A stretch of 48,945 bases of DNA, from positions 1 through 48,945 of the forward strand of contig NZ_CAMJUE010000009.1 of assembly GCF_946408925.1 (NCBI RefSeq). The letters run 5' to 3'. Of the stretch, positions 27,728 through 36,743 are shown in pieces; positions within the stretch are counted from its first letter, which is position 1, and each line of letters begins with the position of its first letter. The notes under the pieces were generated by a model. That model searched no databases and was not told the origin of the DNA. It saw only the letters and a program-made list of their open reading frames with translations. The position numbers and the translations under genes were made by a program. The DNA is from an uncultured Methanobrevibacter sp. GTDB taxonomy: Archaea > Methanobacteriota > Methanobacteria > Methanobacteriales > Methanobacteriaceae.

Positions 27728-29392
27728 ATGAGCGAATTATTTACAGAATTATCATTAGGTAAATTCTTTGAGTCAATGGTTGAAAAACAGCCTGACCATG
27801 AATTTATCGTTTATCCGGACAGAAACTTAAGATTCACATACAAGGAATTTGATGAAAGAATAGACAATCTTGCAAAAGGAATGCTGGCTATCGGAATTGA
27901 AAAAGGAGATCATGTAGGAATATGGGCTAAAAACGTACCGGAATGGCTCACATACATGTTTGCAACAGCAAAAATCGGTGCCACCATAGTTACAGTAAAC
28001 ACCGCATACCAGTCACATGAACTGGAATATGTGCTCAAGCAGTCAGACATGAAGGCACTGGCAATGACTGACGGATTCAGGGACACAAGCTATTTTGACA
28101 TTATAAACGAACTTGTTCCCGAACTTAAAAGCTGTGCAAGAGGACATCTCGTTTCTGAAAAATTCCCACGTTTAAAGTTTATTTTCCACGTCGGTCAGGA
28201 AAAGCACCGTGGAATGTTCAACACCAACGAACTCCTGCTTTTAGGTATGAACTACGATGACGATGAATACCAGAAGGTGAAGGACTCAGTAACACAGCAT
28301 GATGTAATCAACATGCAGTACACCTCCGGAACCGAAGGATTCCCTAAGGGAGTCATGCTTACATCACGTAATATAGTCAATGACGGATACTACATTGGAG
28401 AAAATATGTATTATACTCCTGAAGACAGATTACTTCTTCAAGTGCCTTTATTCCATTGTTTTGGTACAGTACTTGGTGTTATGGCAGTAATCACACACGG
28501 ATCAACCATGGTTGTTCTTGAGGAATATGATCCTCTTTTAGCAATATCCTCAATCCAAAAGGAAAAGTGTACTTCAATCTATGGTGTGCCGACAATGTTT
28601 ATCGGTATGATGAACCATCCGATGTTTGACATGTTTGACATGAGCTCCCTTCGTACCGGAATCATGGCAGGTTCAACTTGCCCTGTTGAAACCATGAAGG
28701 ATGCGATTGAGAAAATGAACATGAAAGGAATTACAAGCGTATATGGACTTACTGAAGCCGCACCCGGTTTTACACAAACAAACGCAAAGGATTCCTTCGA
28801 GAAAAAAATCAACACAGTCGGACGTAAATTCCCAAATATCGAAGTTAAAATCGTTGACCCTGACACCGGTGAGGAGTTAGGTCCCGGCGAGAAGGGTGAA
28901 ATCATGTGCAGAGGTTTCAATGTCATGAAAGGTTACTATAACATGCCTGAAAAGACCGCCGAGACAATCGAGCCGGACGGATGGCTTCACTCAGGAGACC
29001 TTGCAACAGTCGATGAGGACGGATACTACTCAATTGTAGGACGTATCAAGGACATGATTATCAGGGGTGGGGAAAACATTTATCCACGTGAAATCGAGGA
29101 GTTCCTCTTTACCCATGAGTGCGTACAGGATGTTCAGGTTGCAGGAATCCCTGATGAGAAATACGGTGAAATCGTAGGAGCATTCATCATCAGGGAAGAA
29201 GGATTTGATGATGTAACAGAAGCAGACATCCGTGACTTCTGTATAGGTTCAATAGCAAGATATAAGGTGCCTAAATATGTATTCTTTGTGGACAAATTCC
29301 CACTCACAACCAGTGGTAAAATCCAGAAGTATAAATTAGGCGATTTAGGTCTTGAACTTCTTGAACAAAGACGTAAAAATGGAGAATTATAA
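27728..29392 (+). CDS. AMP-forming acyl-CoA synthetase (FadD/AMP-binding family)
   Basis: The 554-residue product carries all core motifs of the adenylate-forming family: '[15 protein letters not shown]' (phosphate loop), '[11 protein letters not shown]', '[19 protein letters not shown]', '[20 protein letters not shown]' and the C-terminal lysine motif '[13 protein letters not shown]'. It activates a carboxylic acid with ATP and joins it to CoA in the cytoplasm. The substrate, short to medium or aromatic acids, cannot be read from the sequence. The ATG has AGGTG 5 nt upstream. The gene follows the XRE-cupin regulator, and both are probably transcribed together. Confidence 0.85.
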
Positions 29393-29414
29393 ATTCTCCC
29401 AATCTATTTTTTTT
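29381..29414 (+). terminator. Intrinsic-type terminator overlapping the ligase stop codon
   Basis: GGAGAATT 29381-29388 pairs with AATTCTCC 29392-29399 (8 bp, 3-nt loop). The TAA stop (29390-29392) is at the loop and start of the right arm. A T8 run follows at 29407-29414. Confidence 0.75.
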
Positions 29415-29553
29415 ACAAGTTGAAAACAATATTTGTTTGAACTTGAAAACTTATTTTAGAAAGTTTTATTGTATGTAAAATATTTTTTTAAATCATGAAA
29501 TTTTTCATCATCATAACAAAATTGCTGTCAAAAAAACTGATTTTACCAAAAAC

Positions 29554-29562
29554 TTTATATAG
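29554..29562 (+). promoter_or_regulatory. Strong TATA box upstream of the decayed locus
   Basis: tttatatag with A-rich upstream bases. Transcription would start near 29585, giving a leader of about 85 nt before the ribosome binding site AAAGGAG (29655-29661). Confidence 0.45.
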
Positions 29563-29668
29563 AATATCAATATAATATAATACTACACTTTAAATTGTAG
29601 GTATAAATTAACCACATCATTATAAGAAATTGACTCTATACAAACTTTTTCACAAAGGAGCTGATAAA

Positions 29669-29719
29669 ATGACACCACAGGCAAAACCAACTACTGCATG
29701 GAGCGTAGTATTCTTTTAA
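29669..29719 (+). CDS. 16-codon open frame with strong ribosome binding site, probably a truncated gene start
   Basis: AAAGGAG is 7 nt before ATG 29669. The frame codes 'MTPQAKPTTAWSVVFF' and stops at 29719. It has a full promoter and leader, so it is either a true micro-peptide or the 5' end of a larger gene whose body was lost. The end 'WSVVFF' looks like the start of a membrane helix, which favours a truncated membrane protein. Confidence 0.35.
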   Translation: MTPQAKPTTAWSVVFF

Positions 29720-29724
29720 GCTAA

Positions 29725-29883
29725 TATGCTGTAATACATTTACCAGGTATTAGGCAACTTTATCAATCATTTAGAGATTCTGTTGATTATAGTAAAGATG
29801 CTTTTTCAATAGAATCCAGTTACACGACAGAGCTTCCGATTAATTCGGGAATTGACCATAAAATTCAAACTATCATCATTTAG
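29725..29883 (+). pseudogene. Coding remnant without a start codon
   Basis: An open frame of 52 codons reads like real protein ('LYQSFRDSVDYSKDAFS', 'TELPINSGIDHKIQT') but has no start codon, and a stop precedes it. It is probably the C-terminus of a lost gene. I do not recognise the family. A ribosome binding site-like AGAGGAA for the next gene overlaps its end. Confidence 0.4.
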
Positions 29884-29894
29884 AGGAAAAAATA

Positions 29895-30416
29895 ATGGAA
29901 ATAAAAAGAGATATTGAAATAGACATTAAAAAGACTGTTGAAAACTCCGTATGCGGAAATGAGGAATTTCATTTCTATGTTGATGAGCTCACATCAAAAG
30001 ATTACATGCCGACCTATGCGGGGGAGGCTGACGAAAAATATTCATTTGATGAAATGGATGAGGAATTTTTCAGATTCCTAAACCAAAAGGCCATAAAAGA
30101 CGGCATTTACATAAGGCTTGTTTATGCCACTGCCAGTGAAAGGGATGGTGAAGCTGTATTCGAATTGGAATATGGTGGTAACAGGGAAGTATTTAAAACA
30201 AGAGACATTGATGACGTTTTGGTATTTGAATTTGCAGACTTTGGAGTTAAAGTGAAGGGAAACTCCGTGACATTTGGTGCAACAATAGATGGAGGTTGTG
30301 CGCATACGCCTTACTTTGCCGAGTTTGGCTCAAGCAAGGCCAATGATGAATTCATTTCACTTGAAAATCCTTTAAACCAAAGGATAATTAAGATTATGGA
30401 GGGGATGATTAAATGA
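29895..30416 (+). CDS. Hypothetical acidic soluble protein
   Basis: The 173-residue protein is not recognised. It is acidic, without membrane helices or signal, and rich in beta-strand patterns ('GIYIRLVYATASERDGE', 'FGVKVKGNSVTFGATIDGG'). AGAGGAA lies about 6 nt before the ATG. The next small gene overlaps its stop by 4 nt (ATGA), so translation is coupled. Confidence 0.7.
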   Translation: MEIKRDIEIDIKKTVENSVCGNEEFHFYVDELTSKDYMPTYAGEADEKYSFDEMDEEFFRFLNQKAIKDGIYIRLVYATASERDGEAVFELEYGGNREVFKTRDIDDVLVFEFADFGVKVKGNSVTFGATIDGGCAHTPYFAEFGSSKANDEFISLENPLNQRIIKIMEGMIK

Positions 30417-30568
30417 TCAATAATTTTGTATCAGCTTTGCAGCTGATTTTAATACTTATTTCAGTATTTCTGCTGATTTATTTGATAATAATTAAGGGGG
30501 ACAATAATCGAAGTTCGTATATGATGTTTTTAATAAATTTGTGCATGTTATGGACAGTATTGATTTAA
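30413..30568 (+). CDS. Small two-helix membrane protein
   Basis: The product has 51 residues from ATG 30413, which overlaps the previous stop (ATGA) and has GGAGGGG with a good spacer. Two hydrophobic segments ('LILILISVFLLIYLIII' and 'MMFLINLCMLWTVLI') flank a short charged loop ('KGDNNRSS'). Function unknown. Coupling to the acidic protein upstream and the next gene downstream suggests a small operon. Confidence 0.6.
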   Translation: MINNFVSALQLILILISVFLLIYLIIIKGDNNRSSYMMFLINLCMLWTVLI

Positions 30569-30577
30569 GAGGTTTCA

Positions 30578-30925
30578 ATGGTGCTTAACTGGGTTAAATA
30601 TTCACGGGATATTGTTGAATTTTTAAATGCAAAGACATTAATGGAAATTGATTACGGAATATTGGATCTGTCAATGATTAAGGATTTTGAACTGAAGGAG
30701 GTTCTTCTCTTTTTTGAGGAACTTCTCACAATGGAACTGAAGATAAATTACATGGAAAACGACACAGGACTTTTCAGGGTTCACTCTGTTGGTGACGGGT
30801 ATTGCTACAGGGAATTTGGACATGTTATTGAAGCCGACTCCATTGAGGAGTTGAAAAAGTTGGTTTTGGATGACGGCAGGATTTGGTATGTCTTCGATGA
30901 CATATTGGCATGTAAAATAATTTAA
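30578..30925 (+). CDS. Hypothetical soluble protein
   Basis: The 115-residue product is not recognised. It begins 'MVLNWVKYSRDIVEFLNAK', has an acidic alpha-helical middle and ends 'DGRIWYVFDDILACKII'. AGAGGT lies 5 nt before the ATG. It belongs to the run of short genes between 29895 and 31023, all on the plus strand with gaps under 15 nt. Confidence 0.65.
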   Translation: MVLNWVKYSRDIVEFLNAKTLMEIDYGILDLSMIKDFELKEVLLFFEELLTMELKINYMENDTGLFRVHSVGDGYCYREFGHVIEADSIEELKKLVLDDGRIWYVFDDILACKII

Positions 30926-30930
30926 AGGAG

Positions 30931-31023
30931 GTGAAAATCTTTAAACAATTATTATTTATGGTAGGTTATTTGTTGGCTTGCATTGTATTTGGATTGGCGC
31001 TTAAAGAGGCATTGGTGATTTAA
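30931..31023 (+). CDS. Possible 30-residue single-helix membrane peptide
   Basis: The frame from GTG 30931 codes one membrane helix ('LLFMVGYLLACIVFGLALK'). A perfect ribosome binding site AAAGGAGG touches the GTG, leaving no proper spacer, and no ATG follows at the right distance; the next in-frame ATG is at 30958. Either the start codon has mutated or a rare start is used. Position within the short-gene run supports a real gene. Confidence 0.35.
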   Translation: MKIFKQLLFMVGYLLACIVFGLALKEALVI

Positions 31024-31035
31024 TCGGAAGTTATA

Positions 31036-31145
31036 ATGAATATTTGTCCTTACGGTCTTAAAAGGTTAATGAGAATTTCGCATACTGCAATGGATGCGGT
31101 AGCACTATGATGGGGAACGAACAGGGAATTTCAAAACAAATTTAG
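31036..31145 (+). pseudogene. Broken small zinc-ribbon gene
   Basis: From ATG 31036 the frame reads 'MNICPYGLKR', then leaves the zinc-ribbon frame. After a one-base shift near the A4 run at 31062-31066 the second half reads 'NENFAYCNGCGSTMMG' to TAG 31143-31145. Together these make a usual N-terminal zinc ribbon (CPxCG...CxxCG) in which the second Cys of the first pair is also lost. Two lesions in a short gene argue for real decay. Confidence 0.5.
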
Positions 31146-31174
31146 ATAAAATGTTTAAATAATCATGCTGACAG

Positions 31175-31254
31175 CTGTTTAACTGGGTTTTTTGCAAACT
31201 CATATATATTCACCTTTTCATTTCTCCTTTAAGTCATTTTTCCCAGTTAAACAG
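31175..31254. repeat. Perfect 13-bp inverted repeat with 54-nt loop
   Basis: CTGTTTAACTGGG at 31175-31187 is the exact reverse complement of CCCAGTTAAACAG at 31242-31254. It lies in the noncoding region before the helicase operon, about 60 bp upstream of its first ATG. It could form a large hairpin in RNA or serve as a paired protein-binding site. Confidence 0.6.
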
Positions 31255-31315
31255 TAATAATATATTATTCGGATAATTAATTATTTATCTTATTTTAAAC
31301 AAAATATTAACAAAT

Positions 31316-32164
31316 ATGATTAATGAAGTTATTATAGATAGGCTGGATGAACTCGTTGGGGATTATGACACTCCATTTTTCAATTACCTTCTCTACTCTT
31401 ACGACTTGAGTTTGAATGATTGTGAACAGATTATTGAAGAGTTGAAAAGTGATATAAATTCCGGCAAACTCATTACTGATAATGTTGCATCCTCTTTGGA
31501 GGATTATTTCAAATCAAAAGTAATTGAGCTTGAAAAACAGGAAAAAATCAAATTTTTATCTGGCCTAATACAGGAGGATAATGACTTCTATATAAAATAC
31601 CTTAAGCGATATGATTTAACACGGGATGACGTCAATCTGATTTATGACCGTGTGGAATCCAAAATCCTTGAGGATAACATCAGTGATTTTGAAATAAAAA
31701 GATATCTTGACTATTACTTCTCAAATTCCGTAAAGCAGGTTTCATATATAAATGAGCTGAACAGCATTGTGGGACGGGCCTATGATACATTAATCATCAG
31801 GAATACCTTAAAAAAATATCCCATTTTAGTTGAAAAGGACATTATTGAGATTGTATTCAGGATTCACGGTGAAATAATAGAAGCGCGTGAATTTAAAAAT
31901 GGAATAAAACATGAATTCAAAAGGCTGTGTCTAATCAGGAGTGAGGATAAGAAGGCCCAATGCAGACGCAGGCTGAATGAATTTGTTGAGGGAAGCGGAG
32001 ATTCATTTTCCAAGCTGATCAAATTTAAAAAGCTGACAAAAAGGGATGGGGACATCATAGTTTCACAGATACAGGATGACATTTCAAAGGGTCTGATTCA
32101 GCCAGACCGAATCGACAGTGTTTTTATAACAAAACGTTTTAATGATTACAATGAGAGACAGTAG
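31316..32164 (+). CDS. Hypothetical protein of four degenerate alpha-helical repeats, helicase partner
   Basis: The 282-residue product has no recognised domain, but four units of about 70 residues align by eye, starting near residues 3, 74, 143 and 212. Each has the pattern 'F..YL..YDLT..D...I...V...I', then 'I.D..I...L..YF' (for example 'YIKYLKRYDLTRDDVNLIYD' in unit 2). Unit 3 is the most diverged. The repeats are probably alpha-helical pairs forming a scaffold. Its gene overlaps the start of the UvrD-type helicase gene by 23 nt, a strong sign that the two proteins are made together and may act in one complex. No ribosome binding site is seen before the ATG. Confidence 0.7.
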   Translation: MINEVIIDRLDELVGDYDTPFFNYLLYSYDLSLNDCEQIIEELKSDINSGKLITDNVASSLEDYFKSKVIELEKQEKIKFLSGLIQEDNDFYIKYLKRYDLTRDDVNLIYDRVESKILEDNISDFEIKRYLDYYFSNSVKQVSYINELNSIVGRAYDTLIIRNTLKKYPILVEKDIIEIVFRIHGEIIEAREFKNGIKHEFKRLCLIRSEDKKAQCRRRLNEFVEGSGDSFSKLIKFKKLTKRDGDIIVSQIQDDISKGLIQPDRIDSVFITKRFNDYNERQ

Positions 32165-35100
32165 TGTTTTTACTTTTCTAAAAAGCAAATTCGGCAATTT
32201 ATATGGCCTGTGCAGTGTCATGGAAAAACTGATTGTTTTAAAAAAATACAATCTTGCCATGGCATGCGCAAAGGTGATTCTTGATGTGTTTTGCCGTCAG
32301 ACCAAAAAGCAGCTTGTATTCACTATTGATGTTTTCAACGACCCTCAGCTGACAATAACACTTGATGATATGAAAAGCGTTCACCAGATACTGTTTGAGT
32401 ATATCTATGACGATTATTTTTTAGGTATCGAGGAGTTCCTGCAGGTCGACTATGAATTCGACTTCTCTTTTTTGAGCCACAGTCCGAAAATCACCAACGA
32501 CGACATTTACATGATTGTGGACAATCTTGAGGTCAACTCAATAACACCCTCACTCATAGGCCTTGAAGGTGATGAGCTGATCTCCATTGAGGATTTAAGC
32601 TCTGAAGATAAGGAAAACGTTTTGAATATGGTTGAAGGCAATCTGAATCAGTTCATAAAAAAGCATATTCTCACATTGAATCTATTTGACAGTGAAGGAA
32701 ACCTCCTGACAAAGCCGTTAAACTTTGAGGCAGTCAGAAAAGCCGACCGTTGCATTGTAGGTGAGATTCCTCCTGAAGTTGAACTGGACGAGTATCAAAG
32801 CGACGCTGTCACATACACCGGAAAGCCGCTGGTAATAAATGCAGGTCCCGGAGCCGGAAAGACACGCGTGATAATCGAAAGGGTGCTTTATCTTATTGAA
32901 AACGGTGCATCACCGGAATCTATTCTTGTGATTACATTTACAAACAAGGCTGCAGATGAGCTTCGCGAGAGATTTAAAAAGGATACAAAACTTGAACTCA
33001 ATGTGATAAATCAGATGAGGATAAGTACAATTCACAGTTTCTGCAGATCAATTCTATCAGATTTCTCAGACATTCCATACAATCTTCTTAAAAGGGAATC
33101 GGAAAGGAATCTCTTTTTCAACAAGCACAGACAAGACCTCGGATTTAAGGGACCTGCATTTTTGAGAAATTACGAATCAGGCCAGGTTCTTAAAAAATAT
33201 GATGAATTCGCACTCTTTGAAGTTGATTCGGAAGGCCTTATAGGATATATTGAGTCTAAATACCATCCAAGCGATGAATATCTCAAATACATTGATGAAT
33301 ACTACAAAACTCATCCCGACACCCAATACCCGACCAAAAAGGAGATAAAGGCACTGGGCTTCAGGTGTGATGTTTACAAGGCAAGGTATCTTCAGATTGC
33401 CAGGTCATACACCGACTGGATAGATTTGATGGAATCCGAACATGTCTGTGACCAGAACTATCTTCTTGTTAAGGCGCTGGAACTTCTATCGGACAGGGAC
33501 AATTTAAACAGGGTTCAGTACCGCAATGTCCTCATTGATGAGTTTCAGGACACCGATGCAATTCAGATGCAGATATTTGAACTTTTAAGATGTATTGCAG
33601 ATACATTCACGGTTGTGGGTGATGCTGACCAGAGCATATACTCATTCAGGGCTGCCAATCCCAAATTTTTCAACGATTATTCAAGAAGCGATGAGTTTGA
33701 AAAGAAAATCCTTGTGAACAATTACCGTTCAACATCAGACATTGTCGAGTTCAATGAGAAATTCATAAGCAAGAAGCGTTCAAACCCTAAGGACTTAAAA
33801 ACAGTCAATGAATCAAAGATGCCTGTCTACATGCTTGAAAACAAGCGTGATGATGATGAGTACCGGGGAATAGCATATATCATTAAAAACCTTAAAAGCT
33901 CCGGTAAGATCACCAAATACAGTGATGTCTGCATACTTTTCAGAAGCCATAAGGACAAAAAGGACATTCTTGAGGAATTTGAAAAGGAAAACATTCCATA
34001 TTACCTTAAGGGAATCGACGATTTGATTTATCAGGATGAGGTCAAGGCGGTTCTGGCACTTTTATGGTATATGATGCCGTTCAACCCTTCACTGATTGCA
34101 TATTACGGTGACGGAGGCCAATGGATAAACCTGTCCTCATTCACAGACAAGTATTACGAATCATCAAAGGTATTTCACCTGTCAGCTAAAACCCAGGAGG
34201 TATTAAACGACATCGAGCAGAGATACCATTATAATGTGGTCAATGTTAAAAACAACTTCAAGCCATTGGACTCCAATGCCAAATCCTCTTCAATAATGGA
34301 TGTTGTCCGGGACTATGCAGATGATACTCTGGATGAAATATTCAAACAGGCAGGCATAATAGACTTAAGCACATACTCCCGTGATGAGCTTAAATCCATC
34401 GGCATTACAGATGAACATGACCTTGACTTTTTCACCGGCCTCAACGAGCTTAAATCATCACTGGGTGATGTCAGACTGACCTCACTGCAGGTGTATTATG
34501 AGCTTTTGAAAATAACAGGCTACGGCGATGAGCTCTTTTCAAGAAAGGACTTCGAGGCCAAAAAGGCGGCTCTCAACCTTGCACTGATATCGGAAATAAT
34601 CTCCGATTATGAAAACATCATGGGAAAATATGATCTTATAGGACTGTTTAACTACATATACCGCTCACTGAAGTATTATTCATGTCCGATCAACGAGGAG
34701 GAGGACAACTCACAGAAGGTCCATATCATGACAGTCCACAAGGCAAAGGGACTTGAGTATCCGGTTGTAATCACCGCTTCAATCAAGGACCGAAGTTTTC
34801 CCCTTAAGTTCTCAGCCCAGAGAAAGGCCCATGTCTTTAACAACTATCCGGTTTACCCGACACCGAACAGGTTTTTAAAGTATAAGATTTCAGAGGATGA
34901 GGAACCCTTTGAATTTGACCGTGAAGAGGAACGGGTGGTTTATGTTGCAAATACTCGTGCTGAGGAATTGCTTATACTGTCGACTGTACTTCCAAGAACC
35001 GGAAGCAAAACACCTGCTGTTTTAAGGGATTATGAAAATGATTTGGTTAAAATCGAGCCTGCCGATGTATTCGCCATGAAAAAGGTGACTTCACATATGA

Positions 35101-35825
35101 TTCGTGACACCAGTCTCTTCAATCAGATAGAGTTTGAGGATATCCTGGAGGATTATCTTTTCTGTCCTTTAAAATTCAATCTCGAAAGCAACCTCAAGTT
35201 TAAAAATCCGAAAAACATCAACAAGTTCATCGATTCCAAACTGCGCGTCATTGTAAACCGTCTTCACAATGACAAGTTCATGACAGACTGGGACAGTGAA
35301 AGCATTGAAAATCTGGTTTCGGAAGTGATAAAATCATACTCATTTGCATCAAGCGAAAAGAAACTGAAAAAGCTGTTTGGCAATTTCACCGAATACTGGA
35401 GTGATTACGGAAGAAACTTCGATGTGGTGAAAACCTCCCATGATGTGAGCCTTGAAGTTGGAGGCTATGACATCAACGGAGTTATCGATTTGATCATCAC
35501 AGACGGTGAGGGCGTGAGTCTGGTTCACTTCATACGAACACGTGACGGCATGAAAAACTACCATTCATTTTACATGGAACTTTTAGGCTATTATGCACTT
35601 GCCCTGAAGGAGAGGGAGGATATTGATGTTGAAAACCTGATGCTTTATGTTCTCGACGAGGCAAAACTCTACGAAAAGCAATTTGTCAGGGATGAGTTCA
35701 TAATGGAGTATCTTGAAGGTGTGGTCGGCAAGATTTCAGATGATGACTACTCAAAACATTTCGTAAACTGCGGTGAATGTGAATTCAGCGGACTGATCTG
35801 CCAGCATGACAATCTATTTAACTGA
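32142..35825 (+). CDS. UvrD/PcrA-type helicase with N-terminal extension and Cas4/AddB-like C-terminus
   Basis: The 1227-residue product is a superfamily 1A helicase. A helical N-terminal extension of about 215 residues comes first. The helicase motifs follow: 'LDEYQSDAV', Walker A 'AGPGAGKT' (Lys240), 'TIHSFCRSIL', motif II 'LIDEFQDTD' (Asp466, Glu467), 'GDADQSIYSFRAANP', 'VHKAKGLEYP' (866-875) and 'VVYVANTRAEE' (motif VI, Arg939). The C-terminal part resembles the RecB/AddB/Cas4 nuclease fold with a four-Cys iron-sulfur pattern: Cys1008 in 'YLFCPLKF' and Cys1210, Cys1213, Cys1220 in 'CGECEFSGLIC'. The nuclease core keeps 'GVIDLI' (Asp1116), but the expected '(D/E)xK' strand reads 'SLVHFIRTRDG', so cleavage is probably lost. 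ATP-driven DNA unwinding in repair or defence is inferred. Confidence 0.85.
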   Translation: MITMRDSSVFTFLKSKFGNLYGLCSVMEKLIVLKKYNLAMACAKVILDVFCRQTKKQLVFTIDVFNDPQLTITLDDMKSVHQILFEYIYDDYFLGIEEFLQVDYEFDFSFLSHSPKITNDDIYMIVDNLEVNSITPSLIGLEGDELISIEDLSSEDKENVLNMVEGNLNQFIKKHILTLNLFDSEGNLLTKPLNFEAVRKADRCIVGEIPPEVELDEYQSDAVTYTGKPLVINAGPGAGKTRVIIERVLYLIENGASPESILVITFTNKAADELRERFKKDTKLELNVINQMRISTIHSFCRSILSDFSDIPYNLLKRESERNLFFNKHRQDLGFKGPAFLRNYESGQVLKKYDEFALFEVDSEGLIGYIESKYHPSDEYLKYIDEYYKTHPDTQYPTKKEIKALGFRCDVYKARYLQIARSYTDWIDLMESEHVCDQNYLLVKALELLSDRDNLNRVQYRNVLIDEFQDTDAIQMQIFELLRCIADTFTVVGDADQSIYSFRAANPKFFNDYSRSDEFEKKILVNNYRSTSDIVEFNEKFISKKRSNPKDLKTVNESKMPVYMLENKRDDDEYRGIAYIIKNLKSSGKITKYSDVCILFRSHKDKKDILEEFEKENIPYYLKGIDDLIYQDEVKAVLALLWYMMPFNPSLIAYYGDGGQWINLSSFTDKYYESSKVFHLSAKTQEVLNDIEQRYHYNVVNVKNNFKPLDSNAKSSSIMDVVRDYADDTLDEIFKQAGIIDLSTYSRDELKSIGITDEHDLDFFTGLNELKSSLGDVRLTSLQVYYELLKITGYGDELFSRKDFEAKKAALNLALISEIISDYENIMGKYDLIGLFNYIYRSLKYYSCPINEEEDNSQKVHIMTVHKAKGLEYPVVITASIKDRSFPLKFSAQRKAHVFNNYPVYPTPNRFLKYKISEDEEPFEFDREEERVVYVANTRAEELLILSTVLPRTGSKTPAVLRDYENDLVKIEPADVFAMKKVTSHMIRDTSLFNQIEFEDILEDYLFCPLKFNLESNLKFKNPKNINKFIDSKLRVIVNRLHNDKFMTDWDSESIENLVSEVIKSYSFASSEKKLKKLFGNFTEYWSDYGRNFDVVKTSHDVSLEVGGYDINGVIDLIITDGEGVSLVHFIRTRDGMKNYHSFYMELLGYYALALKEREDIDVENLMLYVLDEAKLYEKQFVRDEFIMEYLEGVVGKISDDDYSKHFVNCGECEFSGLICQHDNLFN

Positions 35826-35846
35826 CCGTTTTTAAAAGTATATGTG

Positions 35847-36743
35847 ATGAGATTTAATGTTCCCGATGAGCTTGAATTTGAAGTTTCAGATAACCGTGTA
35901 AGATTCACAGTTGATGATTTGTCAACCGGCTGGATGGGTGTGGATGATTCATTCATAAGAAGAGTTGAAAAGGATAAGTTAAACCCTGATCGTCTGGTTA
36001 AACATCTCAAAAAGGAAATTGAGATGAAAAATGTTCTTGATGAGGGAATCTCTTTTTTGAAAGCTGAAAAATACCTGAAAGCCATTGAAAAGTTTGATGA
36101 GGTGCTTTTCTATGATCCATGTTATGGCGAGGCATTGCTTCAAAAGTCATTTTCTCTTCGCCGTCAAAGGCATTTTGTTAAGTCACTCAGATATTATAAA
36201 AAGGCGATAAAATCCGATGAAACATTGAGTGATATTGAATATCACAAGGCCCTTTTAAGAAATGCCAATGAGGAGCGGGACAATTTTCCCAAACTGAAAC
36301 TTAACATATATGCAGGGGATGAGTACTTCTCCAGGGGAGATTTTGAAAGTGCCGTTAAAAAGTATGATGTGGCCCTTGCAAACCCTTCAAAATTCAAGGA
36401 TAAGATACTTTCCAAATTGCTGAATAAAAAGGCAACTGCGCTTTTGAGATTAAATGACTATGATGGAGCATTGGAATGCTTTTTGAAATCCCTGGATGTT
36501 GGTGAAAATGACTATGCAGTATTCGGTGAAGGATATTGTCAGTATAAGTTGGGATTAAATGTGGATGATAAGTTTTTAAAGCCTTTGAATATTACCAAAA
36601 AAGAGATGCTGACTCAGGCCATTGTTTTAGGTGATTTGGGATATTCTAAACAGTCTTTGGATATCTGTGAGTATCTATTGGAAAACCATTTCACCCAGGA
36701 TGAATTCTATATGAAACTGATGCACATCATGGGCAATGTCTAG
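35847..36743 (+). CDS. TPR-repeat protein, third gene of the helicase operon
   Basis: The 298-residue product begins with a beta-rich N-terminus ('FNVPDELEFEVSDNRVRF'). Tetratricopeptide repeats follow from about residue 65 ('YLKAIEKFDEVLFYDPCYG', 'HFVKSLRYYKKAIKSDE', 'DFESAVKKYDVALANPS', 'DYDGALECFLKSLDVG'). TPRs form a scaffold for protein contacts. The ATG at 35847 has a GTG just before it as alternative. Only 21 nt separate it from the helicase stop, so co-transcription and a shared complex are likely. Partner and function are not known. Confidence 0.8.
   Translation: MRFNVPDELEFEVSDNRVRFTVDDLSTGWMGVDDSFIRRVEKDKLNPDRLVKHLKKEIEMKNVLDEGISFLKAEKYLKAIEKFDEVLFYDPCYGEALLQKSFSLRRQRHFVKSLRYYKKAIKSDETLSDIEYHKALLRNANEERDNFPKLKLNIYAGDEYFSRGDFESAVKKYDVALANPSKFKDKILSKLLNKKATALLRLNDYDGALECFLKSLDVGENDYAVFGEGYCQYKLGLNVDDKFLKPLNITKKEMLTQAIVLGDLGYSKQSLDICEYLLENHFTQDEFYMKLMHIMGNV

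Follow-up and report, generated by a model that had tools for sequence, protein, structure and literature searches.

The AddB subunit of AddAB combines an active nuclease with a helicase domain that is an inactive reader, while RecC has an inactive nuclease fold and no working motor. Fusions of an SF1 UvrD-like helicase to a following Cas4-like domain (UvrD-Cas4, pfam12705 branch) have been described in bacteria and mesophilic archaea, with nuclease activity predicted and some members found in defence contexts (Hudaiberdiev et al., 2017; PMC5704561). Furthermore, bacterial RNA polymerase is known as a site of action of motors of the UvrD family, namely PcrA/UvrD and HelD (PMC8318588, PMC7749165).

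Here, a window of 48,945 nucleotides from an uncultured Methanobrevibacter sp. was analyzed, which encodes a helicase that sequence comparison supports well as an inactivated branch of the UvrD-Cas4 fusions. With this family, the protein shares the SF1 UvrD core and a C-terminal Cas4-like domain with four cysteines, but it differs by the loss of the catalytic D and K, by an N-terminus of 210 aa, by an obligate repeat protein partner and by a link to RpoA1 in a sister lineage. The initial annotation had suggested an undescribed helicase system, and this stands for the inactivated branch and its unrecognised partner, whereas the UvrD-Cas4 family as such is known (PMC5704561). No description of a dead UvrD-Cas4 branch or of an RpoA1 fusion was found in the open-access papers searched.

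Comparison with related helicase systems

A helicase-type fold and a RecB-family nuclease domain, the latter inactive in RecC as well, are shared with AddB and RecC. However, the AddB-like logic that had been suggested for the locus is turned around: AddB joins an active nuclease to a dead motor, whereas the window protein has an intact motor, a dead nuclease and no AddA or RecB partner. RecC is nearer, but has no working motor. Because of the opposite active and dead halves and the missing partner subunit, membership in AddB was rejected; no second helicase-nuclease subunit of AddAB or RecBCD was found among the neighbouring genes, and the helicase scores far below the AddA and RecB cut-offs. 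With GajB of the Gabija system, the window helicase has a UvrD-type core and possibly a defence context in common. PADLOC reported many matches to GajB and DRT-helicase profiles, the GajB matches covering just the shared UvrD core. As a GajA OLD-type nuclease partner was not detected among the neighbours either, membership in Gabija was also rejected. GajB is not known to have a Cas4-like tail.

Gene organization and co-occurrence

Three open reading frames are tightly linked, as had been claimed; the repeat protein gene overlaps the helicase gene by 23 nt, and a gap of 18 nt (previously given as about 20 nt) separates the helicase gene from the TPR gene.

27728..29392, + strand: acyl-CoA ligase-like gene that borders the variable locus on its upstream side; most relatives carry it at 90-98% identity and with the same downstream position
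31316..32164, + strand: repeat protein ORF, 282 aa, obligate partner of the helicase by co-occurrence
32142..35825, + strand: 1227-aa UvrD-type SF1 helicase whose Cas4/AddB-like Fe-S nuclease domain is inactivated (ORF, profiles, alignments, tree)
35844..36743, + strand: TPR protein, 299 aa, GTG start, non-obligate neighbour

Of the 67 genus genomes, 21 contain the repeat protein, 21 the helicase of the window's clade (clade A) and 20 both (Fisher p=7e-15, phylogenetically uncorrected). The exceptions, one each way (G121 and G079), both lie at contig ends. A Pfam scan confirmed that the TPR protein is real. Its gene occurs in 31/67 genomes, 14 of which do not have the helicase, and many of these copies occupy this same locus. 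Some helicases, in turn, have no TPR gene beside them, or one that is broken or has been moved away by the insertion of another gene. The three genes are thus not equally co-conserved, contrary to the initial annotation, and a three-gene system was rejected. The co-occurrence of the pair and the independence of the TPR gene argue that the system consists of repeat protein and helicase. The repeat protein is the dedicated partner of the helicase, and the TPR gene belongs to the surrounding variable locus.

The segment between the ligase gene and the downstream genes varies among genomes. In the window, positions 29392-31316 and the region 3' of 36743 are variable, and other genomes have in this place a HEPN-like pair of genes or very large ORFs of up to 3000 aa. 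The proposal of a defence or repair island, made from a placement among short and broken genes, agrees in part: the locus after the ligase gene is variable, but the helicase and partner genes themselves are intact. Positions 1085-23828 of the window harbor four very large ORFs of 1489-1820 aa, possibly adhesin-like.

An AF2 model of the repeat protein (pLDDT 88) displays an N-terminal helix followed by four three-helix units. No family match was obtained in Pfam or NCBIfam, nor any match at E<=0.001 in a fold search of the PDB, in line with the unrecognised four-repeat partner proposed earlier.

Helicase motor and N-terminal domain

In a Pfam scan, the helicase exceeded by far the cut-offs of the UvrD core profiles (PF00580, 187.7 bits; PF13361, 130.6 bits), and the curated families that match it best are PcrA, Rep, UvrD and AddA helicases. 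The ATPase motifs of the 1227-aa protein are complete, as had been noted, with Walker A GPGAGKT, IDEFQDTD, GDADQSIY and KGLEYPVV all kept.

32142..32771, + strand: helicase N-terminal domain, 210 aa, lacking a counterpart in most active paralogues
32844..32864, + strand: Walker A GPGAGKT, residues 235-241, G-P-G-x-G-K-T invariant in the alignment

The N-terminus of the related helicase L071 matched DUF4145 with 22.9 bits, just under the cut-off of 23.1, and the window helicase N-terminus gave no direct DUF4145 match. DUF4145 is a member of the HEPN superfamily, and fusions of it to UvrD helicases are on record (PMC3710099). Possibly, the N-terminal 210 aa are a degenerate DUF4145/HEPN-like domain. 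Two UvrD-Cas4 helicases with active nuclease (L042 and L043, from G044 and G021) have a long N-terminus that includes coiled coil and looks DUF4145-like by eye.

Inactivation of the Cas4-like nuclease domain

35094..35822, + strand: inactivated Cas4-like domain, residues 985-1227 (sub-threshold PDDEXK_1 and Cas4 matches; AF2 beta-beta-beta-alpha-beta core)
35163..35165, + strand: Cys1008, putative Fe-S ligand, invariant
35526..35534, + strand: lost DxK, H1129-F-I1131 versus D-F-K in active homologues (alignment)
35769..35801, + strand: Cys1210, Cys1213 and Cys1220, putative Fe-S ligands, invariant

Residues 1002-1216 matched PDDEXK_1 with 20.0 bits, just short of the cut-off of 22, and the Cas4 model TIGR00372 was matched with an E-value of 1.2e-7, yet well under the family cut-off. 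From 17 close homologues, AF2 gave a helicase model of low quality (mean pLDDT 53), which was therefore used solely for its C-terminal core. Clade-A orthologues that cover the DxK site (61-84% identity) were aligned together with two deeper relatives, L070 and L071. In this alignment, cysteines 1008, 1210, 1213 and 1220 are invariant throughout clade A and L070/L071. The Asp of the GxIDL motif is also kept, and the nuclease motif region aligns with active homologues. In contrast, the catalytic D-x-K is absent from the window helicase, where D is replaced by H1129 and K by I1131, so that the window reads LVHFIRTR versus VIDFKTT in active members of the same archaeal family. The loss is common to all site-covering clade-A orthologues, L070 and L071, with H (K in L071) at position 1129 and I at 1131 in all of them; the motif reads VHFIGSD in L070 and VKFIPSD in L071. 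The Glu of SE(V/Y)PF upstream of DxK and the QL..Y motif are gone as well in every site-covering clade-A sequence.

The initial annotation had asked whether an acidic residue and a Lys occur at other positions in homologues, and no conserved [DE]xK was found near the lost motif in the orthologue alignment. The candidate 'DEMK' of some orthologues is replaced by DGMK in the window protein and by DDIR or DSMR elsewhere among the orthologues, and was rejected as a surviving catalytic site for this lack of conservation. The alignment thereby bears out a nuclease-dead, Fe-S-type C-terminus with four cysteines on an intact UvrD motor.

A maximum-likelihood tree groups the dead members into one clade (support 100/100), within which L070 and L071 form the sister group of clade A; on this tree, the predicted nuclease underwent a single inactivation, placed in the ancestor of the dead clade. 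Since active homologues of the same family keep DFK, the loss of DxK is a derived, maintained state. In each of the three domains (N-terminal, helicase and dead), dN remained much lower than dS, the ratios being rough because dS is near saturation; the dead domain is therefore maintained under purifying selection, and the conserved cysteines would presumably bind an Fe-S cluster. This maintained loss of catalysis with the Fe-S cysteines kept raises the question of which roles Cas4-like domains have besides cutting.

Probable RNA polymerase A'-repeat fusions in the sister lineage

In L070 (genome G132) and L071 (genome G083), which belong to two genera, an RNA polymerase A' (RpoA1) gene is located directly 5' of the dead helicase gene. 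Its identity follows from matches to NCBIfam PRK08566 (1070 and 1313 bits), and both A' genes run on into C-terminal extensions of 435 to 880 aa. When the last 300 aa were searched with an HMM of the repeat protein, scores of 28.7 bits (L070) and 23.3 bits (L071) were obtained, reached by 0/1000 shuffles each, and the best score among 203 other proteins of these loci was 13.2 bits. The L070 match runs almost co-linearly along the entire repeat protein. For the full 880-aa extension of L071, 3/1000 shuffles reached the observed score; identity to the repeat protein is about 22%, hhalign gave P=0.0026 with a probability of 11%, and the match was not significant in hmmsearch with default bias correction. 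The extension is thus likely, judged from these profile comparisons, to be homologous to the repeat protein.

The fusion was present in 2/139 genomes of the family, both fragmented MAGs in which the gene is cut by a contig end. In G083, the A' portion of the extended copy has 94-95% identity to the housekeeping A' and keeps NADFDGD; the housekeeping gene terminates as usual, with rpoA2 as the next gene. On a third G083 contig (L103:1-3237), an A' start adjoins a tyrosine integrase and a VRR-nuclease protein, not rpoB, which suggests that the extended copy resides in an island if, as seems plausible, the contigs join. The G132 copy (L070:2-4249) lacks 13 residues (TVISPDPNISINE or a close variant) present in all other site-covering aligned A' sequences, so this copy may not be functional; a housekeeping A' was not found in the G132 assembly. 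Within the window's clade, the neighbourhoods examined revealed no RpoA1 copy near the helicase. In viral contigs, searches for the RpoA1 fusion yielded distant viral RNA polymerases only, and scans for helicase relatives found none.

Possible function of the repeat protein-helicase pair

With a probability of about 0.42, we favor a two-gene accessory module, probably antiviral, in which the repeat protein would recruit the dead-nuclease helicase to RNA polymerase and the Fe-S domain would be structural. In the sister lineage, the fusion to RpoA1 hints at a helicase working at RNA polymerase, and it is from this fusion that recruitment by the repeat protein may be surmised; a possible physical link to RNA polymerase is indicated by the gene fusion in two relatives only. 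Once recruited, the motor might act on RNA polymerase at invading or damaged DNA by pushing, stripping or backtracking it, or might unwind R-loops there, while the dead Fe-S-type domain would clamp the DNA or guide a strand. PcrA/UvrD and HelD are bacterial, whereas the window module would be recruited via a separate repeat protein. A Pfam scan of the helicase revealed no C-terminal Tudor domain for RNA polymerase binding as in PcrA/UvrD, its C-terminus being Cas4-like instead.

Several other explanations have to be weighed against RNA polymerase recruitment. The protein could be a DNA-end or recombination helicase with no role at RNA polymerase, its dead Fe-S domain binding or reading DNA in a RecC-like manner and the repeat protein acting as scaffold. 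A Cas4-like domain that has lost catalysis and kept its four cysteines would suit such a role, as would the closeness to PcrA, Rep, UvrD and AddA, but there is no AddA/AddB or RecBCD partner nearby, the RpoA1 gene adjoining the sister helicases is left unexplained and the patchy spread is atypical of a core repair complex; we regard this explanation as rather unlikely. We consider it less probable still that the pair is a Gabija-like antiviral module with the repeat protein as effector or toxin, the helicase as sensor and the dead domain as passive remnant. The strong constraint on the dead domain speaks against a remnant, the repeat protein is without a recognisable family, and no GajA accompanies GajB matches confined to the UvrD core, even though these matches are many, the locus is variable and HEPN-like neighbours occur in some genomes.

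The patchy spread of the pair, at a locus that itself varies, points to a defence role more than to housekeeping. A lineage-specific housekeeping accessory helicase, serving in replication-transcription conflict or repair, would account for the purifying selection and for the fact that, where the pair occurs, it mostly keeps a stable position behind the ligase gene; however, about two thirds of the genus genomes yielded no such helicase, and several gains or losses of the pair are needed on the poorly resolved ligase tree. We regard this last explanation as quite improbable.

Other duplicated extended A' genes

A more general version of RNA polymerase recruitment would be that the Methanobacteriaceae possess a class of conflict systems whose helicase module is tethered to the transcription machinery of the host, so that transcription of foreign origin is attacked. 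The tether would be a spare, host-derived and C-terminally extended RpoA1 or, in the window's clade, the free repeat protein, and the motor a dead UvrD-Cas4 or a BrxHI-type helicase. We offer this class as a tentative and, on balance, doubtful proposal. If the RNA polymerase link is true, the host would have turned its own transcription machinery into a defence sensor or platform, and duplicated core RNA polymerase subunits would be components of defence systems; neither idea was found in the open-access papers searched.

A survey of A' genes detected a second A' with a C-terminal extension in G076 and G082, the latter copy being split over two contigs. Both are found downstream of a Zn-ribbon coiled-coil protein and homologues of BrxD/SngB and BrxHI/SngC (Shango-like).

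L115:4317-14001; L123:1555-6708; L116:3-7518; L124:12413-17619: extended A' and Shango-like loci of G076/G082

The likeness to Shango/BREX modules (SngB-SngC, BrxD-BrxHI) thus consists in their adjoining a duplicated extended RpoA1 in two relatives, whereas their helicase belongs to SF2 and such a module is absent from the window locus. With the repeat-protein model, the G076 and G082 extensions did not score above shuffles; they were dropped as repeat fusions, and the fusion claim is limited to G083 and G132. The A' copies of G083 and G076 are closest to the host's own A', which points to repeated capture or gene conversion, and both would fit a need to assemble into the host RNA polymerase. 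The G076 and G082 extensions are 46% identical to each other, and the extended A' of G076 adjoins an Mrr restriction enzyme.
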